This document shows positions 836 to 27,420 of a stretch of DNA of 29,777 nucleotides, in pieces. This DNA is from a virus. How positions within the stretch are numbered: position 1 is the first letter of the stretch; each line of letters begins with the position of its first letter. A model generated the notes under the pieces. That model saw nothing but the letters and a program-made list of their open reading frames with translations. It made no database searches and was not told the DNA's origin. The DNA lies in the IMG/VR virus record IMGVR_UViG_3300048918_000037, positions 1-29,777 of that record. One strand, given 5' to 3'. A program made the position numbers and the translations under genes.

Positions 836-1219
836 ATGACCACTGTGGCAAAACTGATGGGTTCCGGAGTTCCGGCAGCCCAAGCACAGGCCACGACGGC
901 CGGCGTCCCTTCGTCTGGATTGACTGCCGCAGGCTCGACTCAAGGCACCGCAACGCTTATCACTAGCGATTTCAGCGTCTTCTCGACCGTTCCCGCCTCG
1001 TCTGGCGCGCGCCTTCCTGTGGCGAACGCATCGTCGATGTGCGGGCTTGCCGGTGACATCTATGTCGTCGTCAACGCTTCCGCAACAGCAATGCTCGTGT
1101 ATCCCCCGACCGGTGGCAGCTTTGTCAACGCCGCAGCGTCAGCTTCGCTCGCTGGCGGTAAAACAGGCGATTTCTACTGCCTGGGCGGCAACGTATGGGC
1201 GCCGAGCGTTGGTGGCTGA
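836..1219 (+). CDS. Free-standing head-fibre-like domain protein, 127 aa
   Basis: It has a strong ribosome site (AGGAGAA before ATG). The protein starts MTTVAKLMGSGVPAAQAQA, a pattern seen at the N-terminus of many phage surface proteins, followed by a Ser/Ala/Gly/Val-rich beta region with GDIYVVVNAS and YPPTGGSF. It is a close paralogue of the first 127 residues of the 662-residue protein at 4092-6080: hand alignment without gaps gives about 100 of 127 identical positions, and both end in WAPSVGG, where this one stops. It is probably a virion surface or decoration domain. The copy may compete with, or co-assemble with, the fused version. Confidence 0.8.
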   Translation: MTTVAKLMGSGVPAAQAQATTAGVPSSGLTAAGSTQGTATLITSDFSVFSTVPASSGARLPVANASSMCGLAGDIYVVVNASATAMLVYPPTGGSFVNAAASASLAGGKTGDFYCLGGNVWAPSVGG

Positions 1220-1220
1220 T

Positions 1221-1364
1221 ATGACGCCAATCTCAGCAGAAGCCCGCGAATGGGCTATCGAGCAGATCAAAGCGCACGGGGAATACTCGTCGCTCGACGA
1301 TCTGCTGCAACAGGCTGAGACGCTGGCGCATAAGTACGTTAACGACAAAAGTAGCAAAGAGTAG
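1221..1364 (+). CDS. Small helical protein, 47 aa
   Basis: ATG at 1221 follows the previous stop by one base, and the stop TAG ends two bases before the next ATG at 1367. The 47 residues are predicted to be helical. The pattern AREWAIEQIKAHGEYSSLDDLLQQA resembles the strand-helix-helix spacing of ParD/CopG-type ribbon-helix-helix proteins, but this is resemblance of pattern only. Its place directly before the putative small terminase gene suggests a DNA-binding or packaging accessory role. A much longer reading frame from 1047 is rejected because it overlaps the well-supported 836-1219 gene. Confidence 0.6.
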   Translation: MTPISAEAREWAIEQIKAHGEYSSLDDLLQQAETLAHKYVNDKSSKE

Positions 1365-1366
1365 CA

Positions 1367-1648
1367 ATGCCGAAAGGATCAGCACCCGGAGAAAGGCGCG
1401 GAGGGCGCCAGAAAGGCACTCCCAACCGGATCACAGCCGACATCAAGGCGTTGGCACAGGAATACGGTGCCGACGCCATCAAGACGATCGTAGGCATCAT
1501 GCGTACGTCTGAGAACGATACGGCTCGGCTGTCTGCGGCAAAAGAGTTGATCGACCGTGGCTACGGCAAGGCATCGCAAGCGGTAGAAGTGAACGGCGAA
1601 GTTGGCCTTGTGGTGCAAGTCGTCAAGTTTGCTGGCGATTCTGAGTAA
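1367..1648 (+). CDS. Putative terminase small subunit (DUF5681-like N-terminus), 93 aa
   Basis: The basic N-terminus contains GERRGGRQKGTPNR, the hallmark of a family of short phage DNA-binding proteins often found just before a large terminase gene. A helical segment follows (ADIKALAQEYGADAIKTIV and ARLSAAKELIDRGYGK), then an acidic tail. The spacing and order (this gene, then a methyltransferase, then TerL) fit a small terminase subunit that recognises the packaging site. The protein is short for the role (classical TerS is about 130-180 residues), so it may instead be a regulator. There is no strong ribosome site; translation is probably coupled to the upstream gene. Confidence 0.55.
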   Translation: MPKGSAPGERRGGRQKGTPNRITADIKALAQEYGADAIKTIVGIMRTSENDTARLSAAKELIDRGYGKASQAVEVNGEVGLVVQVVKFAGDSE

Positions 1649-1657
1649 ATTCCTCTG

Positions 1658-2359
1658 ATGCCATCCGAGCGGCAAGCAAGGATTAACTCTAGACGGGCCG
1701 ATCTGCGCCTCGGCGACTGCTTGGAAGTCATGGAGACGCTGGCTGATGGCAGCGTGGATCTTGTGCTGACCGACATTCCATACGGGGAAGTCAACCGGAA
1801 AGATAGCGGACTGCGAAAGTTGGATAAAGGCGCCGCCGATATTCTGACATTCGAGCTTGCGCCGTTTCTGTCGGAACTCGACAGGGTTTGCTCCGGTACG
1901 GCATACGTGTTCTGTGGAACCGAGCAGGTAAGCGAGATTCGCGCGCAGTTTGTTCTCATGGGTTGGACTACGCGCCTCGGCATATGGGAAAAAACGAATC
2001 CATCGCCGATGAACGGACAGCATCTGTGGTTGTCCGGCGTCGAGTGTTGCGTATTCGGTCGGAAGAAGGGCGCAACGTTCAACGCTCACTGTAAGAATAG
2101 CGTTTGGCGGTTCCCGAATGGATCGAGCAAGGTTCATCCCACGCAGAAGCCGCTCCCGCTTTTCCAGTATTTGCTTGAAACTTCGAGCGCGCAAGGACAG
2201 ACCGTACTCGATCCTTGCATGGGTTCCGGTACGACGGGCGTAGCAGCCGCACGCGCCGGCCGTGCATTCATCGGCATCGAGCGCGATCCCGGCTATTTCG
2301 CTATCGCAACGCAGCGCATCGAGGATGCATTGCCGATTGATCTGTTCTCGGCGGCGTAA
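1658..2359 (+). CDS. DNA methyltransferase (N6-adenine or N4-cytosine), beta-class order
   Basis: The 233-residue protein has the catalytic motif D39-I-P-Y42 (a DPPY variant) near the N-terminus, HPTQKP at 160-165, and the S-adenosylmethionine-binding motif DPCMGSGTTG from 185, followed by AFIGIERD. The catalytic motif before the SAM-binding motif is the beta-class order of amino-methyltransferases. No restriction endonuclease partner is visible nearby, so it is a solitary methylase, probably protecting phage DNA from host restriction or marking DNA for packaging. It sits between the putative TerS and TerL genes and its stop overlaps the TerL start (TAATG). The ribosome site is weak. Confidence 0.9.
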   Translation: MPSERQARINSRRADLRLGDCLEVMETLADGSVDLVLTDIPYGEVNRKDSGLRKLDKGAADILTFELAPFLSELDRVCSGTAYVFCGTEQVSEIRAQFVLMGWTTRLGIWEKTNPSPMNGQHLWLSGVECCVFGRKKGATFNAHCKNSVWRFPNGSSKVHPTQKPLPLFQYLLETSSAQGQTVLDPCMGSGTTGVAAARAGRAFIGIERDPGYFAIATQRIEDALPIDLFSAA

Positions 2360-3822
2360 TGGCTGTAATCAGACTGCCTAATGGCTGGGTGCCGCGTGCA
2401 TACCAGCGTCCGGCATGGGATTACATGGAACGCGGCGGCAAGCATGCTGAGCTAATTTGGCATCGCCGGGCCGGCAAGGACGAGATTGCACTGCACACGA
2501 CCGCCTGCAAGAGCTTTGAGCGCGTCGGGACGTATTGGCACATGTTGCCGCTGGCGTCGCAGGCACGTAAGGCCATCTGGAACGCGGTCAACGGCCATAG
2601 CGGCAAGCGCAGGATTGACGAGGCATTCCCACATGAGCTACGCAAGCGAACGAACGATCAGGAAATGTTCATTGAGTTCGTGAACGGCTCGACGTGGCAG
2701 GTGCTCGGATCGGACAACTATAACGCGATGGTCGGTGCGCCGCCTGTCGGGTTGGTCTATTCGGAATGGGCGCTGGCGAATCCAGCAGCGCGAGCTTACC
2801 TCCGTCCGATCATCGCGGAGAATAAGGGCTGGGAATTCTTCATCACGACGCCCCGGGGCAAGAATCACGCATATCGCACGCTGAACGCTGCGCGCAATGA
2901 GCCTGGCGCGTTCGCACAGGTCTTGTCGGCGCGGGATACGGGAATCTTCAACGATGAGCAGCTTGAGAAGCTGCGCCGCGCATACATCGCGGACTTCGGC
3001 GAAGACATGGGCTTGGCGATGTTCGATCAGGAATATCTCTGCTCGTTCGATGCGGCGATCATGGGCGCGTATTACGCGGCTGAGTTTCGCAAGATCGATC
3101 AGGAAGGCAGGATTTGCAAGGTTGCGCACGATCCTAACTACCCAGTCTTCACTGCGTGGGACTTGGGCCGCACAGACGATACGTCGATCTGGTGGTTTCA
3201 GGTCATTGCTGGCGAGATTCGGGTGATCGACTTTCACTCGTCATCCGGCAAGAAGCCGGATTACTACGCCGGCCAGCTCATCGGGCGTGAGATTCAGATA
3301 GACCTGATTGGCGATGACGTGGTGGCGACAAAGGGTGATCTCATCCTCGAATGCGCGCATCGGCTGGCGTATCGCTATGAGAAGCACTTTCTCCCGCATG
3401 ACGCCCGCGCCAAGACGCTGGCGGCCAAGGGAAAGTCGGTCATCGAGCAGCTTGCCGCAGTGCTGGGCTGGGACAAGATGGATATCGTTCCGAGCCTAAG
3501 CGTGCAGGACGGCATCCAGGCAGCACGAAATATGTTTCCGCGCGTGTATTTCGACGAAGAACTCTGCGGCGAGGGTACTGACGCGCTGCGTGAGTACCGA
3601 CGCGAGTGGGACGACGAGAAGAAAGTCTTTCGCGAGAAGCCGCTTCACAACTGGTCATCAAATCCGGCCGATGCATTCCGGATGATGGCCGTTGCATGGC
3701 GGCATGAACAGGCTGCACCAATCCCTAAAGACCCCGACTGGGCGAACCTGCAAGTGCAGGAGACGCTAAACGACGTTTGGGAAGATCACATGCGGCACGT
3801 ATCGAATCATCGGAGGCTGTAA
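2359..3822 (+). CDS. Terminase large subunit (packaging ATPase/nuclease)
   Basis: This 487-residue motor protein cuts and pumps DNA into the prohead. The ATPase half shows a Walker A-like HRRAGKD at 35-41, a Walker B-like LVYSEWA at 132-138 with catalytic E136, and the coupling motif FITTPRGKN at 161-169. The nuclease half has an acidic residue after a strand (FTAWDLG, D268) and a late acidic site (NPADAF, D438), as in Terminase_6-type proteins. The size is normal for the family. Its start overlaps the methyltransferase stop, and the following gene has its own GGAGG site. The HRRAGKD Walker variant is seen in podovirus terminases. Confidence 0.95.
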   Translation: MAVIRLPNGWVPRAYQRPAWDYMERGGKHAELIWHRRAGKDEIALHTTACKSFERVGTYWHMLPLASQARKAIWNAVNGHSGKRRIDEAFPHELRKRTNDQEMFIEFVNGSTWQVLGSDNYNAMVGAPPVGLVYSEWALANPAARAYLRPIIAENKGWEFFITTPRGKNHAYRTLNAARNEPGAFAQVLSARDTGIFNDEQLEKLRRAYIADFGEDMGLAMFDQEYLCSFDAAIMGAYYAAEFRKIDQEGRICKVAHDPNYPVFTAWDLGRTDDTSIWWFQVIAGEIRVIDFHSSSGKKPDYYAGQLIGREIQIDLIGDDVVATKGDLILECAHRLAYRYEKHFLPHDARAKTLAAKGKSVIEQLAAVLGWDKMDIVPSLSVQDGIQAARNMFPRVYFDEELCGEGTDALREYRREWDDEKKVFREKPLHNWSSNPADAFRMMAVAWRHEQAAPIPKDPDWANLQVQETLNDVWEDHMRHVSNHRRL

Positions 3823-4092
3823 ATGGCATCGAGCATTAGCGGCGGCGGCATTCAGTTCGCCGCGAGCAGGAACGTCAACGCGATCCCCGGCCAGACGCTT
3901 ATCGGCATTTTCGTGTCGAGCACCACATCAGGCACGGTGGCTGTCTATGATAGCAATGCCACGTCGACGGCCACGAAGCTGATTGATACGGTGCTCTTGC
4001 CAGTTGGCTTTACGCCGATGCATCTCGCCGCGGCACAAGGCCATTACATCGTGGTCGGCGGCACGATCAGCGCAACAGCGATCATCGGCTGA
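3823..4092 (+). CDS. Small beta-rich protein, possible surface or decoration protein, 89 aa
   Basis: It starts right after TerL with a GGAGG site, and its TGA overlaps the next ATG (ATGA). The sequence is rich in Ser, Thr, Ala, Gly and Ile, with alternating hydrophobic residues (LIGIFVSSTTSGTVAVYDS, HYIVVGGTISATAIIG), which reads as a small beta-sandwich. There are no charged clusters, membrane segments or signal peptide. Its tight coupling to the 662-residue fibre-like gene suggests a partner of that protein, perhaps a base or cap on the capsid surface. No family is recognised. Confidence 0.75.
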   Translation: MASSISGGGIQFAASRNVNAIPGQTLIGIFVSSTTSGTVAVYDSNATSTATKLIDTVLLPVGFTPMHLAAAQGHYIVVGGTISATAIIG

Positions 4093-6080
4093 TGACTACC
4101 CTCGCGAAGCTGATGGGGTCGGGCGTACCGGGCGCCCAGGCACAGGCCACCACTGCTGGCATTCCCGCGCTCAATCTCACGGCTGCCGGCACGACCCAAG
4201 CTAACGCAACGGCGATTACCAGCGATTTCAGCGTGTTTTCGACCGTCCCTGCATCATCGGGTGCTCGTCTGCCGGCGCAAAACCTGATCAGTATGACCGC
4301 GACGGCCGGTGACATCTACGTTGTCATCAACGCCTCCGCAACGACGATGCTGGTATATCCGCCGCTCGGTGGCAGCTTCGCAAATGCGGCCGCATCTGCA
4401 TCCCTCTCAGCAGGACAAACTGCCGATTTCTACTGCCTCGGCAACAACGCGTGGGCGCCAAGCGTCGGGGGCACATCGTCAATTTTTGCTGAAGACGATT
4501 TCATCGGAACGAACGGAACATTTGTTGAATCGCGCCCGACGAATATCGGCAACAAGACATGGACCACGAACGCGGCTGGCGCATTCACCTTAAACGGAAG
4601 CGGTAAGGTCAACGCGACGATTCAGGCAAATGCGAACACCAACGTGTTTGATGCCGGCGTTTCTGACTTCACCATTACCTGCTCCATGTCGTCCTTCACG
4701 CCAGACAATAACCATTGCGTGCTGGCGGACCTTATTTTCCGTTACGTTGACGCCGGGAATTTCTGGGGTGTGGAGATTGACCCTCGGTTCAACAAGGTAG
4801 TGTTCTACAACAAGACCGGTGGTTCGCAGTTTGTGCGAATGTTCATCATTGATGCGACAGTGGTTTCGAATGCTATAACCGCCGTCCGCGTGGATTGCAT
4901 GGGCGCAAACATCACCGTATGGGTGAATGGTGTGCAGATTGCCTCGGTAGTTGACACGTTCAATCAGACCGCTACAAAGTGCGGAATCTATATGGGTGTC
5001 AACGGGCCGTCTGGAGGCAATGCAACTTGGGGTCCGATAGCGGTAGTGCCGGCAGCCGGATTGAAATACAACTGGCCAGCGTTCGTCAAAAACACTGCTA
5101 ATGCCGGTGCTCCGGTTATTCCAAAAGGTACAGCTGGGACATGGAACGCGACGGACCTTAACAACCCAACGCCGTTCTATGACGCCGTTAATTCTCGGTG
5201 GGCGATGCTGCTATCTGGCTATACGGCGGCCGCGCACTCGACAAACGGGAATGCTCCGAACTCAAGCATCCAGAACCTCGGGCTGTGGACTTCGACAACC
5301 ATTGATGGACCGTGGACTGCCTATGTCTCGAACCCGGTGATGCTCGCAAATGGGACTGACGGCGTTGGCGCATTCAACGGCGGCGCTGTGCAGATTGGCG
5401 GCACGACGTATCAAGCCTATGTCTCCGATAACGGTACGACGATCCGTTGGGCTACAAGCACTGATCTTATCAATTGGACGCGGGTTGGGTTGATTGCGAG
5501 TTCAACCGTGCCGACTTCCCTCTCGTGGAAGTCCAACGGGGTATTTGACCCGATGCTGCGTGTCCGCCAAGGAAGCAACATCATCGAAATGTGGTGTGCC
5601 GGTGTTGATGGGGCAGGGACGAAACGCTTCGGCTTGCTTACGTCAAATGACCTCGGCACGACATGGGTCGACCAGACAGGCACCATCCCTGCCGTTCTCC
5701 CGCCCACGAACGTGTTTGTGAATTCTTCCGCTGGCGAACCTTCAGTCTACGTGCCGCCTGGGAAAGAAGGTCAACAGTATTTGATCGCGTTCGATTATGT
5801 GCCGACGATCCAATCTGGCAATCCACCAGTTGGCCGATATATTGGACAGGGGATTTCTCTTGATGGCGGCCAGACATGGGCATGGCGTATTGAAGCCAGC
5901 AAGCCGGGCACATACGCCTGGGAAAACCTGCAAGATTTCGACTCGTTCATGATCGACGTTGGCGATGGAAATCTGCGCTTGTTCAATAGCGGCGCCGATA
6001 CTTATGGCCCGGCCCTCGGCCTGAACATCCAGATCGGCGAGCAATCGGCGCCCTGGGGCAAAACTAGCCTGGTGAACTAA
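4092..6080 (+). CDS. Head-fibre or spike-like protein with LamG-like and beta-propeller glycosidase-like domains
   Basis: The protein has 662 residues in three parts. Residues 1-127 are a paralogue of the 836-1219 protein. Residues from about 130 to 315 form a jelly-roll/LamG-like segment (FWGVEIDPRFNKVVFYN, ITVWVNGVQIASVVD). Residues from about 319 to 662 look like a five-bladed propeller of the GH43/GH32 type, with DLNNPTPFYD, NGVFDPMLR and AGEPSVYVPPG as successive blade motifs. Such proteins bind or cut polysaccharide. The gene lies between the large terminase and portal genes, where tail spikes are not usual, so a capsid-bound fibre is possible. Enzyme activity is inferred. Starts and stops overlap both neighbours. 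Confidence 0.8.
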   Translation: MTTLAKLMGSGVPGAQAQATTAGIPALNLTAAGTTQANATAITSDFSVFSTVPASSGARLPAQNLISMTATAGDIYVVINASATTMLVYPPLGGSFANAAASASLSAGQTADFYCLGNNAWAPSVGGTSSIFAEDDFIGTNGTFVESRPTNIGNKTWTTNAAGAFTLNGSGKVNATIQANANTNVFDAGVSDFTITCSMSSFTPDNNHCVLADLIFRYVDAGNFWGVEIDPRFNKVVFYNKTGGSQFVRMFIIDATVVSNAITAVRVDCMGANITVWVNGVQIASVVDTFNQTATKCGIYMGVNGPSGGNATWGPIAVVPAAGLKYNWPAFVKNTANAGAPVIPKGTAGTWNATDLNNPTPFYDAVNSRWAMLLSGYTAAAHSTNGNAPNSSIQNLGLWTSTTIDGPWTAYVSNPVMLANGTDGVGAFNGGAVQIGGTTYQAYVSDNGTTIRWATSTDLINWTRVGLIASSTVPTSLSWKSNGVFDPMLRVRQGSNIIEMWCAGVDGAGTKRFGLLTSNDLGTTWVDQTGTIPAVLPPTNVFVNSSAGEPSVYVPPGKEGQQYLIAFDYVPTIQSGNPPVGRYIGQGISLDGGQTWAWRIEASKPGTYAWENLQDFDSFMIDVGDGNLRLFNSGADTYGPALGLNIQIGEQSAPWGKTSLVN

Positions 6081-8290
6081 TGGCACAACCCACGCGTTCG
6101 CCCGAGGTAGAGCGCTACCTAGGCTATATCACGGCCTACGACAAGACGTTCAACAAGTGGACGGATCGGTCGACGAAGATCACCAAGCGTTACCGTGACG
6201 ACGCGAAGGAATACACCTATGGCAGCGAGTCAGCACGTTTCAACATCCTATGGGCCAACGTCCAGACACTGGTTCCGGCAACCTTCAGTCGTCTACCACA
6301 GCCCGACGTGTCTCGCCGTTTCCGTGATTCAGATCCGATCGGACGTGTTGCTTCGCTTCTGCTCGAACGGGCATTGGAGTTCGAAGTACGCCATTACCCT
6401 GATTACCGGGAGGCGATGAAGAACAGCGTCCAGGATCGCTTTCTTTGCGGTCGTGGCGTGGCATGGGTGCGGTATGCACCGGTCACGAGCGTTCAGGAGC
6501 CGTTGTCAGAGGATGAGACGGGGGATGACGAGGCGGTCATTGAGGGAGCCGGCGCAGAGCAGATCACCGACGACCAGCCGCTTGAGCAGATCGATGATGA
6601 GACTTCGCCGGTTGACTATGTTCATTGGAAGGACTTCGGCCATTCGGTCGCGCGTACATGGGAAGAAGTAACGTGCGTATGGCGTCGCGTCTACCTATCC
6701 TACTCGAAGCTATGCGAGCGATTCGGCGAAGAAACGGCGATGCGCGTTCCTTTGGATGCGACGCCGGGCGCGGAAGGCTATGGCGAGTCGAAGATGGCGA
6801 CCGGCCAGGAGCAGATGAACAAGCAGGCGTGCGTCTACGAGATTTGGGACAAGGAGACGCAGAAGGCTGTTTGGCTATCGAAATCGGGCGGCCAGTTGCT
6901 GGACGAGAAGCATGATCCGCTCGGGCTTGAGGGATTCTTCCCATGCCCGAAGCCACTGCTCGGCACGACGACCAGCGACACGCTCGTCCCGGTTCCTGAC
7001 TTCATCCAATATCAGGACCAGGCGAACGAGCTCGACGTTATCAGCGATCGCATCGACGGGCTTATCAAGGCGCTCAAGGTGCGCGGCGTCTACAACGCTG
7101 AGTTCAAGGAATTGCAGCGGCTGTTCACAGAAACGGGCAACAATGACCTGATCCCGGTAAAGAGTTTCGCAGCGTTCGCCGAGAAGGGCGGCTTGAAGGG
7201 CGCGCTCGACATCGTAGACCTCGGCCCGATTGCTCAGGCATTGCAGATTGCATTCGAGGCGCGCGAGAACGTCGTGCAGCAGATTTATGCGCTGACCGGC
7301 ATTGCCGACATCATGCGCGGTGAGACGGATGCGGCGGAGACGGCTACAGCGCAGGGCATCAAGGCGCGGTTCGGCGCAGTCCGGCTTCGTACCACGCAGG
7401 AAGACGTTGCGATCTACGCGACGGAATTGCTTCGTCTGAAAGCACAGGTTATTTGCGGCAAGTTCAGCGATCAGACCATCTTGCAAATGGCTTCCGCAGG
7501 TCAATTACTGCCCGAAGATCAGCAGCTTGTGCCGCAAGCGCTCCAAATGCTGCGCAACAAGGTTCTGCGCTCGTTCCGGATCGAGGTTGACGCCGATTCG
7601 CTCGTTCAGATCGACGAGGACGCGCAGAAGCAGGACCGTATCGAGTTCGTCGAGATGGTCAGCAAGTTTATTCAGCAAGTCATCCCTGCTGCGCAATCTA
7701 CTCCAGAGATCGCTCCTGTGCTGGTCGAAATCCTCAAGTTCGGCGTGTCGGCGTTTAAGGCAGGCAAGACGCTTGAGGGCATGATCGACAACGCAGCGGA
7801 GACGCTGACGAAGCAGATTCAGGCGCAAGCCGGACAGCCCAAGCCTCCGCCGATCGAAATCCAGAAGGTGCAGGCCGAGTCTCAAGCGCGTATCCAAGAG
7901 AAGCAGGCTGGCGCGCAGATCGACATGCAGATGGAATCGCAGCGTAACCAGATCGAGGCGGCAAAGATTCAGCAGCAGGGGCAACTTGAGACGCTGAAAG
8001 CGCATCTCGCGCAGCAGACGGCCGAATTCGAGCAGCGCGCGCAGGCACAACAAGCAGCACAAGAGACGGCGCTTGAAATGCACCGTGACGAGATGGACCG
8101 CCAGGCAGCAGAGCGCACAGAGCAGATGAAAGCCATGCTCGAAGCGGACAAGGCTGAGCGCGACCGTCAATTCCAGATGCTGATTGCTGCGATGAACAAT
8201 CAGGTCAAGCTCGAAGTTGCCGAAATCGGCGCTCAAACCACGCTGGACGCAGCGCAGATCAGCGCGGCGAAGTCAGCATCCGACGAATAA
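6080..8290 (+). CDS. Portal protein (P22 gp1-like)
   Basis: At 736 residues this matches the size of P22-type portal proteins (about 725). It forms the dodecameric channel through which DNA enters the head. The N-terminus (KWTDRSTKITKRYRDD) and the region RIDGLIKALKVRGVYNAEFKEL are portal-like. An acidic insert rich in E and D lies at about 140-177. The C-terminal part, about 590-720, is a long Gln/Glu/Ala/Arg-rich coiled coil, like the barrel of P22 portals that projects into the capsid. The order TerL, portal, scaffold, coat supports the call. The start overlaps the preceding stop (TAATG). Confidence 0.9.
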   Translation: MAQPTRSPEVERYLGYITAYDKTFNKWTDRSTKITKRYRDDAKEYTYGSESARFNILWANVQTLVPATFSRLPQPDVSRRFRDSDPIGRVASLLLERALEFEVRHYPDYREAMKNSVQDRFLCGRGVAWVRYAPVTSVQEPLSEDETGDDEAVIEGAGAEQITDDQPLEQIDDETSPVDYVHWKDFGHSVARTWEEVTCVWRRVYLSYSKLCERFGEETAMRVPLDATPGAEGYGESKMATGQEQMNKQACVYEIWDKETQKAVWLSKSGGQLLDEKHDPLGLEGFFPCPKPLLGTTTSDTLVPVPDFIQYQDQANELDVISDRIDGLIKALKVRGVYNAEFKELQRLFTETGNNDLIPVKSFAAFAEKGGLKGALDIVDLGPIAQALQIAFEARENVVQQIYALTGIADIMRGETDAAETATAQGIKARFGAVRLRTTQEDVAIYATELLRLKAQVICGKFSDQTILQMASAGQLLPEDQQLVPQALQMLRNKVLRSFRIEVDADSLVQIDEDAQKQDRIEFVEMVSKFIQQVIPAAQSTPEIAPVLVEILKFGVSAFKAGKTLEGMIDNAAETLTKQIQAQAGQPKPPPIEIQKVQAESQARIQEKQAGAQIDMQMESQRNQIEAAKIQQQGQLETLKAHLAQQTAEFEQRAQAQQAAQETALEMHRDEMDRQAAERTEQMKAMLEADKAERDRQFQMLIAAMNNQVKLEVAEIGAQTTLDAAQISAAKSASDE

Positions 8291-8294
8291 ACCC

Positions 8295-8660
8295 ATGCCT
8301 CTGTATACATTCGAGTGCCAATTGTGCAGGCACACTGACCAATTATTCAGAAAAATCAAAGATCGCGACGAACTCGCGCGATGCGTTAGGTGCAGCCCCG
8401 TCGTGGTCCGCGACAACTCCATGAAACGTATCGTCGAAGCGCCCTTTGTCGCTGCCGACATGTCGCCCTATAAGTCGATGATTACCGGCGAAATGATAAC
8501 GTCGCGATCGCATCACCGAGCGCACCTGAAGGCGCATGGCTGCGTCGAGATCGGCAATGAAACGAAGTACCTGAAGCCCAAAGAAAAGATCGACCTTACG
8601 CCCGAGTCGAAGAAGGCGCGTAAGCAAAAGATCATTGATCAAGTCAACGCGCTTAAATAA
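8295..8660 (+). CDS. FmdB-type zinc-ribbon protein, 121 aa
   Basis: The preferred start is ATG 8295, four bases after the portal stop. The N-terminus MPLYTFECQLC with C8/C11 and a second pair C30/C33 matches the FmdB/CxxC zinc-ribbon family, whose members begin MPLYEY. The rest is basic and helical (SKKARKQKIIDQVNALK at the C-terminus). In phages, zinc ribbons of this kind are found between portal and scaffold genes without a proven role; a structural or assembly function is inferred. A longer start at 8217 lies inside the portal gene and is rejected because FmdB proteins start with this MPLY. Confidence 0.8.
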   Translation: MPLYTFECQLCRHTDQLFRKIKDRDELARCVRCSPVVVRDNSMKRIVEAPFVAADMSPYKSMITGEMITSRSHHRAHLKAHGCVEIGNETKYLKPKEKIDLTPESKKARKQKIIDQVNALK

Positions 8661-8677
8661 GCCACGGAGAAACCATC

Positions 8678-9736
8678 ATGGGAACACGCAGAGAAGATTT
8701 GGCGGAAGCGCTTGACGCGATCGACCAATCGGTAACGGACACGCCGGCAGATGTTGTGCATGAGATTGTAGTCGATGCCCCGAGCGTCGAGAACATCACC
8801 GCTGAGCCGGTCGAGAACGAAGGCCGCATTCGCGACGAGTCGGGCCGGTTCGCTCCGAAAGCACCCGCTGCTCCATCTGCTGAAGCTGTGGCGGGCGTTG
8901 AGGCGCAGCCGGTAGCAACAGAGCGTCCCGAGCCGCCGAAGTCATGGAAGGCCGATCAGCGCGCCCATTGGGACAAGCTTGATCCGGAAGTCGCGAAGTA
9001 CATCCATCAGCGCGAACAGGAAAGCCAGCGCGGATTCGATGATTACCGTGCGAAGGTTGAGCCGATCGTCCAATCGATCCAGCCGCACATGGACGAATTG
9101 CGGCAGCAGGGCGTTCAACCTGAAGTAGTCGTTCGTGATCTGCTGTACACGCGCAAGCTCCTTGCGACTGGTGACGAGGCGACGAAGCTTCAAACGCTGG
9201 TGAACGTGGCGCATGCGGTCGGTATTCCGCTCCAGCAGATGTTGCAGCAGAGCGCGGCACTCCCGCAGCACATGCAGCAGCATATCGACCCTAGCGTAAT
9301 GGCAGCGCAGCAACGCGCGCGTGATCTGGAAAACCAGATGGCGCAGCACCAGCAGCAACAGAACGCACAGATTCAAGCGGCTGCGATGGCCGAAGTCGAG
9401 AACTTCAGGTCATCGCATCCGCATGTAGATATTCTAGGTCCCGAAATGCAACGCCTTTTACAAGCGGGCGAAGCGGTGGACTTAGACAGCGCCTATTCGA
9501 AGGCGCTCGACCAGCTTACCCAGAAAGCCAAAGCAATATTGCCACCACAACGGCAAGAAGCGGACAGGCAGGCTAGGTTAGCGGCCGATAAGGCAGCGAA
9601 AGCAGCCAAAGCGAACGCAGTCAGCACGCGAACGGCCACACCCGGCGCAGTCGCGGCAACGACAGGCGGGGCACCGAAAGGACGGCGCGCGGCATTGGAA
9701 GAATCCTTCGACCAGGCAACCGCAAGCCGTATTTGA
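8678..9736 (+). CDS. Capsid scaffolding protein
   Basis: The 352-residue protein is acidic at the N-terminus, then strongly helical and Gln-rich (QQMLQQSAALPQHMQQHI, MAQHQQQQNAQIQAAAMAEV), and ends in a basic tail after an Ala/Lys-rich stretch. This is the composition of phage scaffolds, which guide coat assembly and leave the prohead before DNA fills it. The WKADQRAHWDKLDPEVAKYI segment recurs in scaffolds of podoviruses. It lies directly before the coat gene. The ribosome site GGAGAA supports ATG 8678. Confidence 0.85.
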   Translation: MGTRREDLAEALDAIDQSVTDTPADVVHEIVVDAPSVENITAEPVENEGRIRDESGRFAPKAPAAPSAEAVAGVEAQPVATERPEPPKSWKADQRAHWDKLDPEVAKYIHQREQESQRGFDDYRAKVEPIVQSIQPHMDELRQQGVQPEVVVRDLLYTRKLLATGDEATKLQTLVNVAHAVGIPLQQMLQQSAALPQHMQQHIDPSVMAAQQRARDLENQMAQHQQQQNAQIQAAAMAEVENFRSSHPHVDILGPEMQRLLQAGEAVDLDSAYSKALDQLTQKAKAILPPQRQEADRQARLAADKAAKAAKANAVSTRTATPGAVAATTGGAPKGRRAALEESFDQATASRI

Positions 9737-9757: not shown

Positions 9758-10762
9758 ATGGCATTCGCCAATGGAGCAATCAGCGACATCATCGCCACGA
9801 CCATCCAATCTCGTAGCGGCGAACTCGCTGACAACGTAACAAACAACAACGCCCTCCTCATGGTTCTCCGTGAGCGCGGGAATGTCCGTCCGTTCGGCGG
9901 TGGTAACGTGATTTTGGAAGAAATCATGTACACCGACGCGACGACGACCAACGTCAACTCGTACTCGGGCTATGAAGTCCTGAACATCGCGCCGAACAGC
10001 CCGATCTCGGCGGCTCAGTTCTCGATCCAGCAGTACGCGGCGGCTGTCACGATCTCGGGTCTGGAAATGCTTCAGAACTCGTCGAAAGAAGCCATCATCG
10101 ATCTGCTCGACTCGCGCATGGACATCGCCGAGTCGCAACTGATCAACCGCATTGCGGCCGACATCTATCTCGATGGCACGGGCAACAGCGGCAAGAACAT
10201 CACTGGTTTGGCTGCGGCTATCCCGGATGCGCCGACCTCGGGCACGTATGGCGGTATCAACCGCGCATCGTTCGCCTTCTGGCAATCGCAGGTGTTCTCG
10301 GGCACGACCAACGGCGGTGCGGCTGTCTCGGCTGCGAACATCCAGAACTACATGACGCAGCTCGCCCTGAAGGCGGTTCGCGGTCGTGACCGTATGGACC
10401 TGTTTGTCGCGGACAACAACTACTACTCGATGTACATCGCATCGATGCAGGCACAGCAGCGCGTGATGAGCGACGGCAACACGAAGCTCGCCGGCGCTGG
10501 TTTCCCTGCCGTGAAGTTCTACGGTGGCGGCATGGCTTCCGACGTGGTGCTCGACGGCGGTATCGGCGCCAACGCGACGGCGAATCACATGTGGGGCCTC
10601 AACACGAAGTACATCTCGTTCCGGCCGCACCGTGACCGTAACTTCGTGCCGATCGGCGGCGAGCGTCAGGCAGTCAACCAAGACGCTGTTACGAAATTAA
10701 TTGGATGGGCCGGCAATATGACCTCCCGCGGCCCGCAGTTCAGCGGCGTCCTCATCGCTTAA
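9758..10762 (+). CDS. Major capsid (coat) protein
   Basis: The 334-residue protein builds the icosahedral shell. It starts MAFANGAISDIIATTIQSRS and contains a glycine-rich loop (RPFGGGNVILEEIMY), then QFSIQQYAAAVTISGLEML and a long helix (IIDLLDSRMDIAESQLINRI), as in HK97-fold coats of podoviruses. It lacks the extra Ig-like domain of the 430-residue P22 coat. It has the strongest ribosome site of the region (TAGGAGCTACACATG) and highly biased codons, as expected for the most abundant virion protein. It sits between the scaffold and a small head protein. Confidence 0.92.
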   Translation: MAFANGAISDIIATTIQSRSGELADNVTNNNALLMVLRERGNVRPFGGGNVILEEIMYTDATTTNVNSYSGYEVLNIAPNSPISAAQFSIQQYAAAVTISGLEMLQNSSKEAIIDLLDSRMDIAESQLINRIAADIYLDGTGNSGKNITGLAAAIPDAPTSGTYGGINRASFAFWQSQVFSGTTNGGAAVSAANIQNYMTQLALKAVRGRDRMDLFVADNNYYSMYIASMQAQQRVMSDGNTKLAGAGFPAVKFYGGGMASDVVLDGGIGANATANHMWGLNTKYISFRPHRDRNFVPIGGERQAVNQDAVTKLIGWAGNMTSRGPQFSGVLIA

Positions 10763-21958: not shown

Positions 21959-23512
21959 TTGCCTTATAACGGAAGCGGAGTGTTCAGCCTCCCAAGCGGT
22001 AATCCGGTCGTAACCGGCACTACCATCAGCTCGACTTGGGCCAATAATACGCTTTCTGACATCGCAAACAATGGCCTCACTAATTGTTTGACGAAGGACG
22101 GCCAACAGACTCCGACCGCGAATATCCCGCTTGGTGGTTTCAGAATCACCAGCCTTGGGAACGGCACTGCGCTAACCGATGCTGCGAATCTAAGCCAAAT
22201 CCAGAACAACGGCGCGACGGTCCTCGGATCCATCAGCGGAACCGGTGATGCGATCGTCGCTGCATCGGCTCCCTCGATTACTGCCTATACGACCGGTCAG
22301 ACGTTCATCTACACGCCTACGTCGACAAACACGGTAACGAATCCGACGATCAACATTTCGGCTGTCGGCGCCAAGACGATTACACAATCGAATGGCCTCG
22401 GTCTGTGGTCTGGCGCACTAGCTGTCGGGACTCCGTATCAGTTGTATTACGACGGCACGAATTTCCGCGTTCAGACGGGTCAACTCGCTCAGGGTATCCC
22501 GTATTATCAGAGCCGGACAAGCCATCGCAATTACCTCTCTGATGGCAATTTCGACTTCTGGCGCTCCGGAACCTCTTTCACGCTTTCGCCGAGTGTTTTC
22601 CAGTATACGGCGGATATGTGGATTGTGACATCAGGAGGAGGGTCATCCTCGATCACGGTCGCGCGGAATGCTTTTACCGCAGGTACGCCACCTTCTGGCA
22701 TGACAACGCCTGCTACGTTTTTTGCAAAATTGTCTCAGACGGTCGCCGCGACAAGCACTGGAAGCAGTATTACACAGCACATTGAGAAGGTGCGCACGCT
22801 TGAAGGGCATACTGCAACGTTATCAATGTGGTTGTGGGTGGATTCAGGGACGATCACGATTCCCACGCTTTCAATCGTTCAAAGCTTCGGGTCGGGCGGA
22901 AGCGGATCGGTGACCTTAACTCCTACCGTGAATTGGGTCATTACAACTACGCCTACGCTGTTCTCGGCATCCATAGCAATTCCGTCTATCTCGGGTAAGA
23001 CAATCGGAAGCGATGGCAGCGATTTCCTTTCCGTTGGCATTCGGATGCCGGTGAGTGCTACATTTGCTCTCAATACGAGCCAATGGCAACTAGAGGAAAG
23101 CCCGGCGAATGCTCCTGCGAATGGACTTCCGACGCCATTCGAATTCCGTGGATATGATGCTGAGTTGGTTCGAGTCAATAGGTATGTTCAACTGCTCGGC
23201 GATACGAGTGCATTCTCTCAGTATGTTCTAGGCACAGGCGTCTTTTCATCGGCCACGCAATTCTTGGCGATGATTCCTCTTGCATCGCCGATGCGAAATC
23301 AGCCGATCATTACATTCGTTTCCGGGTCAGCGGCGGCATTATCAGTTTTTTCTGCTTCTACATTTGCTCTTTCGGCCATATCTTTGCTTACCCTTTCGTC
23401 ATCTTCAACAGAAATACTAGCAAATTGCACTGTGGCTGGAGCTACTGGCGGTCAATCTGGGATATTACGATTCAATGCTGCTGGACTGCTGATCGCCGAT
23501 GCGCGTTTATAA
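21959..23512 (+). CDS. Tail fibre / receptor-binding protein, 517 aa
   Basis: The start is TTG at 21959 with GGGAG at 21947-21951 a few bases upstream. The N-terminus MPYNGSGVFSLPSGNPV is the common virion-attachment segment of podophage tail fibres, followed by LGGFRITSLGNGTALTDAANL. Residues from about 185 on are beta-rich and Ser/Thr/Gly-rich (GNFDFWRSGTSFTLSPSVFQYTADMW), as in carbohydrate-binding fibre ends. It should decide host receptor range. It follows the HNH insertion and precedes a small 56-residue gene. No other in-frame start with a good ribosome site was seen. Confidence 0.85.
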   Translation: MPYNGSGVFSLPSGNPVVTGTTISSTWANNTLSDIANNGLTNCLTKDGQQTPTANIPLGGFRITSLGNGTALTDAANLSQIQNNGATVLGSISGTGDAIVAASAPSITAYTTGQTFIYTPTSTNTVTNPTINISAVGAKTITQSNGLGLWSGALAVGTPYQLYYDGTNFRVQTGQLAQGIPYYQSRTSHRNYLSDGNFDFWRSGTSFTLSPSVFQYTADMWIVTSGGGSSSITVARNAFTAGTPPSGMTTPATFFAKLSQTVAATSTGSSITQHIEKVRTLEGHTATLSMWLWVDSGTITIPTLSIVQSFGSGGSGSVTLTPTVNWVITTTPTLFSASIAIPSISGKTIGSDGSDFLSVGIRMPVSATFALNTSQWQLEESPANAPANGLPTPFEFRGYDAELVRVNRYVQLLGDTSAFSQYVLGTGVFSSATQFLAMIPLASPMRNQPIITFVSGSAAALSVFSASTFALSAISLLTLSSSSTEILANCTVAGATGGQSGILRFNAAGLLIADARL

Positions 23513-24579: not shown

Positions 24580-25187
24580 ACTGGTCAGACATAGCCGGCG
24601 CAGTCGGCAAAGCAGCGCCTATCCTCGGTACGGCTCTCGGCGGTCCGCTTGGTGGCGTGGCTGGCGCATTGATCGCAAGCGCGCTCGGTACATCCAATGA
24701 TGCCGATGCAGTCAATACAGCACTTGCTGCCGATCCTGCCGCGCTCGAAAAGCTGAAAGAAGCCGAAATGGCGAACAAGGTGCAGATGCAGCAGCTTGTC
24801 ATCACAGCGGAGCAAAACCGCCTAGCTGACGTGCAGAACGCCCGCGCTCGCCAATCCGCAAATCCGAAAGATTACACGCCGCAACTTCTCGCCGGTGGCG
24901 TCACGTTGGGCTTCTTCGGTGCTCTGACTGCGGTTATGCTGGCGCCGCTGTCGAACAGCGTCCACGATCTCCTGCTCGTCATGATCGGCGCGCTTCAGAC
25001 TGCCTGGATTTCGGTCATCTCTTACTATTTCGGGTCGAGCAAGGAAAGCGCCGGACAGACGAAGATGATCGCGGACGTTGGATATGCCGCAGCGAATGCT
25101 CCTATCAACATTCACACGCAAGCGCAACAGCCCGAGTCAATCGGGCCGTCGACGCTGCCTGAGCCGAGCATGTTCAGGGGACATTAG
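24576..25187 (+). CDS. Three-TM holin (GTA_holin_3TM-like), 203 aa
   Basis: GTG 24576 with AGGAG ten bases upstream; the stop TAG at 25185-25187 overlaps the end of the opposite-strand OMP gene. TM segments lie at about 14-37 (GGPLGGVAGALIASALG), 105-123 (LLAGGVTLGFFGALTAVML) and 131-151 (DLLLVMIGALQTAWISVISYYF). A helical linker (residues 45-95) separates the first from the others, as in the GTA_holin_3TM family used by phages and gene transfer agents. It should form the holes that release the endolysin. No Rz/Rz1 spanin pair is seen in or after this gene. The 24273 start lies inside the endolysin gene. Confidence 0.85.
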   Translation: MNWSDIAGAVGKAAPILGTALGGPLGGVAGALIASALGTSNDADAVNTALAADPAALEKLKEAEMANKVQMQQLVITAEQNRLADVQNARARQSANPKDYTPQLLAGGVTLGFFGALTAVMLAPLSNSVHDLLLVMIGALQTAWISVISYYFGSSKESAGQTKMIADVGYAAANAPINIHTQAQQPESIGPSTLPEPSMFRGH

Positions 25188-25891
25188 AAGCGGTATTTCC
25201 CTTCCACGACCCAGGCGCCTTTCCAGATCGCAGGATAGTGGCTGTTGTCGAACTTGGTCGGCAGCCAGTAGTGCTTCAGCCCAAGCGTGAAGTTACCGCG
25301 GCCCACATTCACGCCGGCGACTTCGCCGAGCTGTAGCGCGTGCGGGGTGTTGGCGTGGATGGTTTGTGGAGGCGTATTCGGGTCGACCTGCCATCCGTAA
25401 ATCGTTTCATCCCACGCCGGCCGATACGGGAAAAGTCCAGCTTCCAGCCCGAATCGCCAACCTCGGTACTTCATCCACGGTTCCAACGTGAACGCGACGC
25501 CCTGAACGTTTCCGTTTCCGACGAAGTTCGCGAGAGGCGCGTTATACCCCTGCCGAACAATCAGAGCATGGGATTGGAAGTCGTAATTTGAATCTTGCGG
25601 CGTGCACTCGCATGTCGACGACACATGGCCGAGATTCACATAGTCGACGTGCCAGTCGACGCCCCATGTTCCCCGATCGTAAAGCGGACCTGTAAATCCC
25701 GCACTGAATCCGTAGGTATGGATATTCAGCACGTGCGGAAGCCCCTGCTGATACCACGTGCCATCCCCTTGCGTAGCGTAGTTGGATGACGAAATTCCGG
25801 CCTCAATTTGGAAGAAGCTTTCAGCATTCGCAGAACTACAGGCGAGCGCCAGCGCGACAGCGACCGCTGCCGAATTTACGGACGTGCTCAT
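25184..25891 (-). CDS. Outer-membrane beta-barrel protein (moron), 235 aa
   Basis: A signal peptide runs from 1 to about 23 (VAVALALACSSANA, cleavage before ESFF). Aromatic, alternating strands follow (WGVDWHVDYVNLGHV, FTLGLKHYWLPTKF), and the protein ends VVEGKYRF, a C-terminal phenylalanine typical of BAM-inserted barrels. The ribosome site is GAGG with a 6-nt spacer. The gene is transcribed against the late operon and meets the holin gene tail to tail with a 4-bp overlap, so it can be expressed from the lysogen. Superinfection exclusion or surface modification is likely for such a gene but unproven; no PagL-type catalytic pattern is seen. Confidence 0.85.
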   Translation of the reverse strand: MSTSVNSAAVAVALALACSSANAESFFQIEAGISSSNYATQGDGTWYQQGLPHVLNIHTYGFSAGFTGPLYDRGTWGVDWHVDYVNLGHVSSTCECTPQDSNYDFQSHALIVRQGYNAPLANFVGNGNVQGVAFTLEPWMKYRGWRFGLEAGLFPYRPAWDETIYGWQVDPNTPPQTIHANTPHALQLGEVAGVNVGRGNFTLGLKHYWLPTKFDNSHYPAIWKGAWVVEGKYRF

Positions 25892-26138: not shown

Positions 26139-27221
26139 CTATCCGCCAATCGTGACCTTTATCGGCGCAATTCCGCGAGAATCCGCGTACATTTCCGCCA
26201 TCGCATCGGTCATGTGCCCGAGCAATTGCTTTGTGTTCACGTTGCCCTGATCATCGTATAGGCGCTTCGCCAAGCTCCGGATTTCGTGGAACGTGGGCGG
26301 ATCGTCGCCCGCGATTCCCGCCAGTTCGCGCGCCGCGGCGAACGCCATCGAAATGCTTCCGAGCTTCACATGCGATCCGCGAACAGCGCGCCCCTGATTC
26401 TTGATATGGTGGATCAGGTACTTGCTGACGACGCCGGTCGACTTACACCGTGCGATGACATCGGCCAGCGAAAGTCCGATCGCATCCAACCTCAACGCGA
26501 CAGGAATCTCGATCTTCACGGATGTCTTCGAGCGCTGAAGCAGAACGACGCTTCCCGACGAGAATGAGCGCTCCCAGCGCGCGATGGTCGCCCGGTCCTG
26601 TCCCGAGACGAGCGCCAGAAGCATTGCGTTCTGCAACCATTCGTTCACTTCCGGCGCCTTCTCGAAGATCGCCTGAAACTCTTCCAACTTCAGCCGGCGC
26701 CGCTTCGTCTTCGGCTTCGGGCGCTCGGTATCGGTGACTGGATTTTCCGACATCCAGCCGAGTTGCTTTCCTTTCCGGCAGATCGACATCAGGCGGTTGC
26801 GGATCGACTGCGCCCAGCGCTTCTTATCCTGCTCGATCAGCGGTTCAATCAACTCAGCGACGTGCTTCGTCGTCAGCTCGCTGCATGGGATAGTTCCGAT
26901 TCCGTTGACGATCGCCGCATCGATATACCCGCGCGTCTTCAATGTCGAAGCCTTCTGACCTTCGGTTGGCATCCGCTTTATCAGATCGGCGACTGTGTTA
27001 GACGGAGCCGATAGACGCTCTGCAAGCGTCCGGTTCAGCTTCCCGTTCTCCACGATCACGTTCGCCTCTTGGGCCTCGTGGATCGCCTGTGCGAGCGGAA
27101 TCCGGCCAAGGATGTGCGTCTTCTTATCGCGAGGGTCGAGCCACGTATAGTACCCAGGACGCGGCTCGTGCATGTTTGCCGGCCAGTTGGCGCGGCGTCT
27201 TATCCGTGGTCGTGCGGCCAT
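26139..27221 (-). CDS. int: Tyrosine-recombinase integrase, lambda type
   Basis: The preferred start, ATG 27221, gives 360 residues, one base after the Xis stop. The N-terminal arm domain (ARPRIRRRANWPANMHEPRPGYYTWLDP) parallels lambda Int. Catalytic set: K232 (RSKTSVK), H312-x-x-R315 (FHEIRS), H336 (LLGHMTD) and nucleophile Y345 (EMYADSRG). Box I reads SGQDRATIARW (206-216): without a gap, D209 falls where lambda has R212 in TGQR, and R210 is one step later. It integrates and excises the phage at att. A 384-residue version from 27293 would overlap xis by about 70 bp and aligns no better. Confidence 0.92.
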   Translation of the reverse strand: MAARPRIRRRANWPANMHEPRPGYYTWLDPRDKKTHILGRIPLAQAIHEAQEANVIVENGKLNRTLAERLSAPSNTVADLIKRMPTEGQKASTLKTRGYIDAAIVNGIGTIPCSELTTKHVAELIEPLIEQDKKRWAQSIRNRLMSICRKGKQLGWMSENPVTDTERPKPKTKRRRLKLEEFQAIFEKAPEVNEWLQNAMLLALVSGQDRATIARWERSFSSGSVVLLQRSKTSVKIEIPVALRLDAIGLSLADVIARCKSTGVVSKYLIHHIKNQGRAVRGSHVKLGSISMAFAAARELAGIAGDDPPTFHEIRSLAKRLYDDQGNVNTKQLLGHMTDAMAEMYADSRGIAPIKVTIGG

Positions 27222-27222
27222 G

Positions 27223-27420
27223 TCATTTTTGTATACGGCTGGCCAGTGACGGCCGGGTTGATCGGTCCTGAAACGTGGCGTTCTGATCGACATAGTACGC
27301 TCGCCCGACCTTCACGGGCGGCGGGTATATCTTGCCGTCACGAATCCACAGGCGGGCGGTGCGGATGGCGGGCGCCGGCTCGAATTCCCGGCGCAACCAT
27401 TCGTCGAGTCTGAGCTTCAT
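27223..27420 (-). CDS. xis: Excisionase (Xis-like), 65 aa
   Basis: The protein begins MKLRLDEWLRREFEPAPAIR and contains TARLWIRDGKIYPPPVKVG-RAYYV, the winged-helix layout of lambda-type excisionases (Exc family). Xis bends attachment-site DNA and steers Int to excision. Its stop lies one base before the int start, and its ATG directly follows the stop of the 27421-27768 gene (TAG|ATG), so all three are co-translated. The C-terminal tail (FQDRSTRPSLASRIQK) is variable. Confidence 0.85.
   Translation of the reverse strand: MKLRLDEWLRREFEPAPAIRTARLWIRDGKIYPPPVKVGRAYYVDQNATFQDRSTRPSLASRIQK

Follow-up and report, generated by a model that had tools for sequence, protein, structure and literature searches.

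Some phages build bare and extended forms of one structural protein. In SPP1 (gp17.1 and gp17.1*) and in the 936 phages (the major tail protein and TpeX), the two forms arise by programmed frameshift (PMC6669499). The virions of these phages carry both forms, and the extension is an adhesin or a carbohydrate-binding module. T4 Hoc, T5 pb10, SPP1 gp12, and phi29 gp8.5 are carbohydrate-binding capsid decorations, accessory surface proteins thought to help in reaching the host (PMC7602432). Each of these is the product of a single gene with no bare twin beside it. In two-gene laboratory phage display of the 'type 88'-like kind, wild-type and cargo-fused copies of a coat gene together yield mixed particles. 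Here we describe, from genes alone, a phage locus that resembles the SPP1 and 936 systems in pairing a bare with an extended protein: a 127-aa unit, which we call domain A, is encoded once as a free protein and once fused to a large cargo. Unlike gp17.1* and TpeX, which come from one gene and a frameshift, the forms are specified by two separate genes, the extended one being an accessory insertion. The same end as in the frameshift pairs seems to have been reached by duplicated genes. In contrast to the laboratory system, the pair is natural and its large cargo has been exchanged between phage families. We found no description of a bare gene paired with a fused duplicate in the open-licence literature, in which the frameshift pairs and the single-gene decorations come nearest.

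The window, by which we mean the whole stretch of 29,777 nt analysed, comprises positions 1-29,777 of IMG/VR record IMGVR_UViG_3300048918_000037 and was studied computationally, from its sequence. Its gene content identifies it as an Mx8-like podovirus: the terminase large subunit (TerL), portal, major capsid protein (MCP), and tail genes have collinear homologues in Myxococcus Mx8 and Mx9 and Stenotrophomonas BUCT555, a podovirus lineage treated in PMC10386132, and the window MCP is 49-53% identical to theirs. All have in common the order TerL, portal, scaffold-like gene, MCP, whereas domain A was not found in the fetched regions of Mx8, Mx9, and BUCT555. The domain A family is absent from Pfam and PHROGs, and tblastn among 50,697 phage records gave no match for domain A. 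Nor did its alignment match genome contigs, in a scan with two short patterns that distant prophage copies could escape. The locus contains the following features.

512-826, + strand: 104-aa gene, the conserved upstream neighbour of the free copy in relatives' loci
825-829, + strand: Shine-Dalgarno (SD) sequence AGGAG of the free copy, 6 nt 5' of its ATG, kept in nearly all relatives
836-1219, + strand: free domain A, 127 aa, core gene (BLASTP, relatives, selection)
1221-1364, + strand: small gene (~47 aa) after the free copy, with homologues in relatives
1367-1648, + strand: TerS-like gene, part of an exchangeable cassette (PHROG 15261, E 6e-20; terminase small subunit phrog_2538, E 8.5e-4)
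1658-2359, + strand: DNA methyltransferase (PF01555, E 2.8e-23; phrog_67, E 7.8e-60)
2359-3822, + strand: terminase large subunit; several relatives have a 34%-identical version in its place
3823-4092, + strand: 89-aa gene, upstream edge of the accessory slot, with a strong SD (GGAGG at 3812-3816)
4092-6080, + strand: fused gene, domain A plus cargo, 662 aa; its start overlaps the stop of 3823-4092 (TGATG) and it has no SD of its own
4092-4472, + strand: fused domain A copy, residues 1-127
4473-6077, + strand: cargo, 535 aa; N-terminal part weakly 3-keto-disaccharide-hydrolase/lectin-like, C-terminal part GH43 beta-propeller-like, both below Pfam cut-offs
6080-8290, + strand: portal protein, downstream edge of the slot (phrog_12082, E 5.4e-176)
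9758-10762, + strand: major capsid protein (homology to Mx8/Mx9/BUCT555); domain A genes lie near the MCP gene in aquatic relatives
21959-23512: another candidate receptor-binding gene, in the window and in relatives (tail fibre PHROGs)

A preliminary description of this DNA had counted by hand about 100 of 127 matching positions, without gaps, between the free protein and the start of the fused one, and BLASTP returns exactly that figure (100/127 identical, 107/127 similar, 0 gaps, 173 bits, E 4e-56). It had also placed the end of the free protein exactly at the end of the domain; the free ORF does have TGA directly after ...APSVGG, the point at which the fused protein runs on as TSSIFAEDDF. 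Compared without gaps, the DNA of the two copies is identical at 271 of 381 positions (~71%), and 70 of the 110 differences fall at third codon positions (dN 0.17, dS >1); the 60 nt flanks of the copies are dissimilar (18/60 and 10/60 identical). The copies lie 2.9 kb apart as separate genes, with the TerS-like, methyltransferase, TerL, and 89-aa genes among those between them. An HMM scan of all window ORFs of at least 50 aa, and of the loci fetched by then, revealed no third domain A copy in the window.

The possibility that this pair is the scar of a gene duplication does not fit the free copy. All ten close relatives first found via domain A have it, between the 104-aa gene and the terminase genes, and further relatives have it likewise. 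Loci were fetched again with the MCP to remove the bias of having fetched them with domain A, and the free gene is in place in 8/8 close relatives recovered in this way with the upstream region covered (L097, L102, L105, L109, L110, L112, L114, and L115, several of which are contigs already found with domain A). Purifying selection on the free copy, which the preliminary description had named beforehand as a test, was found: close pairs of free copies have dN/dS values of 0.02-0.06, and the median over the free copies is 0.18 (NG86). In the tree, the fused domains form one clade (99/95) that falls within the free copies (grouping with that of L005 at 96/85). This nesting identifies the free copy as the ancestral core gene and the fused copy as derived, and it argues for a single capture of a free domain followed by inheritance.

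The fused gene is present in six loci (the window, L003, L004, L006, L035, and L036) and absent from 11 relatives (L007, L008, L009, L011, L037, L044, L045, L048, L049, L050, and L054), where the portal gene lies directly 3' of the 89-aa gene or its homologue. The empty site in L007 and L054 reads ...GGCTGATATGGCACAA; at the occupied site, the fused gene sits between TGATG and TAATGGCACAA. Judged by these junctions, the fused gene is a clean accessory insertion. Other relatives have ~600-aa TIM-barrel-like proteins or small beta-rich proteins in the same place, contents that mark the slot as an interchangeable cargo bay. The TIM-barrel-like proteins are probably GH5-like; one of them matches PF00150 (E 2.9e-4, below the cut-off), the others gave no match, and a profile search of this cargo against PDB sequences found nothing.

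Other enzymes also use the slot, since in the spring-water relative L059 (MW202489, 2326-5289) the space between TerL and portal has a PhoD-like phosphatase and two unknown genes. Several slot proteins that are otherwise unrelated (L012 6304, L046 2779/4735, L053 9990/11802, and L087 4600) begin with M(F/L)RG or similar, perhaps a common attachment or leader peptide. Comparison by hhalign gave no support for domain A being homologous to the small beta-rich proteins of the slot (3823-4092; L012 6304-6609 and 6612-6938), and a similarity of the 3823-4092 product to a 122-aa L069 protein was also unsupported. The neighbouring TerS-TerL cassette (window 1367-3822; L003, L006, L007, L011, and L054) exists in two swapped versions, with TerL ~34% identical and the outer genes unchanged, and the methyltransferase between TerS and TerL is present in only some loci. 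The two domain A copies had been described as flanking the packaging genes. This is correct for the window, where domain A is encoded in the head module beside the terminase and portal genes, but it looks incidental, the cassette being swapped in relatives with or without the fused copy.

The cargo probably binds or cleaves polysaccharide. Motifs such as WATSTDLINW resemble, by eye, a GH43/GH32-type propeller. The GH43 family PF04616 matches with E 1.3e-4 at 21.9 bits, below the gathering cut-off of 32.2; 5/6 cargo relatives match GH43 weakly, and there are other weak matches, to BNR repeats and to 3-keto-disaccharide hydrolase (in relatives, E 9.7e-4 at best). We rejected filing the cargo as GH43, given the Pfam score below the gathering cut-off, and the earlier label 'glycan-active' is weakly supported by the same match. 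Profile searches with the cargo and with its propeller part gave no match to PDB sequences, and an AlphaFold model of the whole fused protein, from 6 similar rows, reached a pLDDT of 31.

The layout of a bare and a fused copy recurs with other domains and other cargo. L060 and L061 are podovirus contigs with different connector genes (Ad3, Hc3) that encode the window's cargo, 81% identical over 534 aa, joined at ..SIFAEDDF to a 72-aa domain C that is unrelated to domain A. In these contigs the fused gene is closely preceded by a gene for bare domain C (77 aa, 75% identical), and 12 other phages have the bare domain C gene only (75-96 aa as called). The cargo DNAs of the window, L006, and L060 are about equally distant from one another (identity of 74.8% for window-L060, 73.4% for window-L006, and 77.5% for L006-L060), so the cargo has moved between the families. 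L060 and L003 come from one metagenome (IMG 3300046543) and L061 and L006 from another (IMG 3300046462); one cargo is common to two unrelated phage families from the same metagenomes.

Aquatic relatives, with MCPs 74-75% identical to that of the window, encode domain A within a few genes after the MCP. Domain A was found there in 33 of the 37 MCP-fetched aquatic loci with at least 4 kb past the MCP, and 13 have two or more. In L116, L123, L124, L167, and L171, one domain A paralogue is extended by ~155 residues and another copy is bare (its ORF was called from an upstream start in L124, L167, and L171; the domain begins MPIPSRV). The extension is weakly similar to the C-terminal domain of BclA (E 0.0026 at best). 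This BclA-like extended paralogue stands apart from the GH43-like fusion in the tree (100/100 branch), and the extended and bare members of the second paralogue group together. By these comparisons, the layout seems to have been reached independently at least two or three times. L096 (the same contig as L108) has a second domain-A-like 121-aa gene at 8604-8969, immediately after the 98-aa gene behind the MCP, which is where the aquatic relatives have theirs.

At their C-terminus the GH5-like slot proteins have a domain B, and the next gene downstream encodes a free protein of 153-155 aa that is 42-56% identical to it. Domain B was considered as a further, weaker anchor case but set apart from the others, as it travels with the cargo and L087 and L089 have the fused form alone; it may belong with the cargo and not be an anchor. 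Since domain B is C-terminal and can lack a free copy, 'free plus fused' is no rule for every cargo. GH5-like slot proteins (L052, L053, L051, L039, L087, and L093) span at least two phage families, probably three; in the Mx8-like group, domain B is also encoded by a free gene just downstream of the GH5-like gene.

An AlphaFold model of domain A from 27 sequences has a pLDDT of 76 overall; most of its sandwich scores above 80, except residues 65-71, and the first 21 residues are poorly predicted. The model matches the Solidus tailspike depolymerase (Z 10.9), residues 78-179 (XD1) of CBA120 TSP4 (Z 9.3), a Klebsiella phage baseplate protein (Z 9.2), T4 gp9 (Z 7.9), T4 gp10 (Z 7.7), and the Pa223 capsid spike (Z 7.7). 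Domain A is predicted to have the XD1 beta-sandwich fold of T4 gp9, gp10, and CBA120 TSP4, in which XD1 domains are trimeric (PMC8825819). The predicted likeness to these three extends over ~90 residues, and so does the placing of the domain close to the N-terminus in a protein that binds receptors or is an enzyme. Domain A differs in being also a complete stand-alone gene, and its profile matched no solved XD1 chain, or any other PDB sequence, up to E 1. The N-terminal 21 residues, which lie outside the sandwich, are the best conserved (0.86 majority identity versus 0.78 elsewhere), as would be expected if both copies dock to one partner.

Translation signals favour the free copy. Nearly all relatives have AGGAG at the usual spacing before the free gene, with hybrid energies of -6.5 to -8.2 kcal/mol and one of -4.2; the window free gene has -7.3 kcal/mol, and the window MCP gene also has AGGAG (-6.5). 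The ribosome site of the fused gene reaches -1.5 to -1.7 kcal/mol, and the 89-aa gene before it has a very strong SD (-9.5 kcal/mol). For domain C in L060, the energies are -6.5 for the bare gene, which has AGGAG, and -3.7 for the fused gene; in the tandem aquatic pairs the second bare domain A copy is also without an SD. Bare copies are probably in excess of fused ones, since the free gene has its own strong site and the fused gene depends on coupling to the preceding small gene. Given coupling to a gene with so strong an SD, fused expression may not be low. The suggestion in the preliminary description that such a pair could set the ratio of bare to decorated sites gains indirect support from the independent recurrence, the predicted virion-protein fold, and these translation signals.

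The best reading of the locus, which we hold with somewhat better than even confidence, is a two-gene display in which the cargo sits at an attachment site common to both proteins, with bare copies probably in excess. In Mx8-like podoviruses, domain A would be a small protein of the virion surface, probably a trimer, of which the phage keeps a bare gene and an accessory second copy whose C-terminus bears a large, probably polysaccharide-binding or -cleaving cargo. Since the N-terminal segment and the fold are common to both copies, both would occupy the same kind of virion site, assembling as separate homotrimers or as mixed trimers. The structural role would fall to the bare copies; the decorated ones, fewer in number, would hold the cargo out from the particle and leave it uncrowded. 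The whole would amount to a natural two-gene form of phage display. The sequences themselves establish the duplication, its ancestry, the selection, the slot, the exchange of cargo, and the recurrence; the fold is a prediction, and virion location, trimerisation, a common site, the ratio, and cargo activity are inferences. The XD1 fold alone is no proof of anchoring, because in T4 gp9, gp10, and TSP4 the XD1 domain is said to space interacting modules apart, and the XD1-fold domains of StcE and CpaA are called glycan-binding (PMC8825819).

The model of domain A does match CpaA (Z 7.8) and StcE (Z 5.7), and the cargo looks carbohydrate-related. It is conceivable, although unlikely, that domain A is a glycan-binding module, the free protein being a lectin-like decoration and the fused domain targeting the cargo to its substrate rather than serving as a virion anchor. 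The best and most numerous fold matches are, however, trimeric phage tail and baseplate proteins, and the most conserved stretch of the domain is not in the sandwich. Moreover, L060 and L061 join the same cargo to an unrelated N-terminal domain that is their own lineage's conserved small protein, a pattern more in keeping with an anchor than with a lectin specific for the substrate. Less probable again is a tailspike-like or neck-attached enzyme in which domain A is only a trimerising spacer and the free copy has a separate structural job, so that the two never have sites in common. The spacer role described for XD1 and the presence of the other candidate receptor-binding gene (21959-23512) in the window and relatives would suit it; against it, domain A forms the very N-terminal end of the fused protein, the place to look for an anchor, and the two window copies agree at 19 of their first 21 residues. 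That the duplication is neutral, or that the repeats are maintained as recombination sites for exchanging the terminase cassette between them, is very improbable and largely refuted. The cassette between the free copy and 3823-4092 is indeed exchanged in relatives for the 34%-identical version, but this exchange is also seen in L007, L011, and L054, which are without the fused copy. In addition, the DNA identity of the repeats is only 71%, purifying selection acts on both copies, and unrelated domains show the same layout.

Beyond this locus, two-gene display might represent a podovirus-wide strategy, a generalization that we advance tentatively and at somewhat less than even confidence. Each lineage would keep a bare small surface protein and load a duplicate of it with interchangeable polysaccharide-active cargo, and the cargo would move between unrelated phages by recombination at the domain boundary onto the recipient's own anchor. 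If two-gene display holds, a free partner gene would reveal the attachment domain of unknown enzymes, the bare proteins would be natural, ready-made anchors for the display of large proteins on particles, and the system would offer a testable case for cargo and anchor evolving as separate units.

The window phage is probably temperate, since a tyrosine-recombinase-like ORF (26139-27293, - strand) and an excisionase-like ORF (27223-27420, - strand) are present. At 25184-25891 (- strand, with the structural genes on the other strand), a 235-aa protein begins like a signal peptide and has the look of an outer-membrane beta-barrel; it is possibly the product of a lysogeny gene that alters the host surface.
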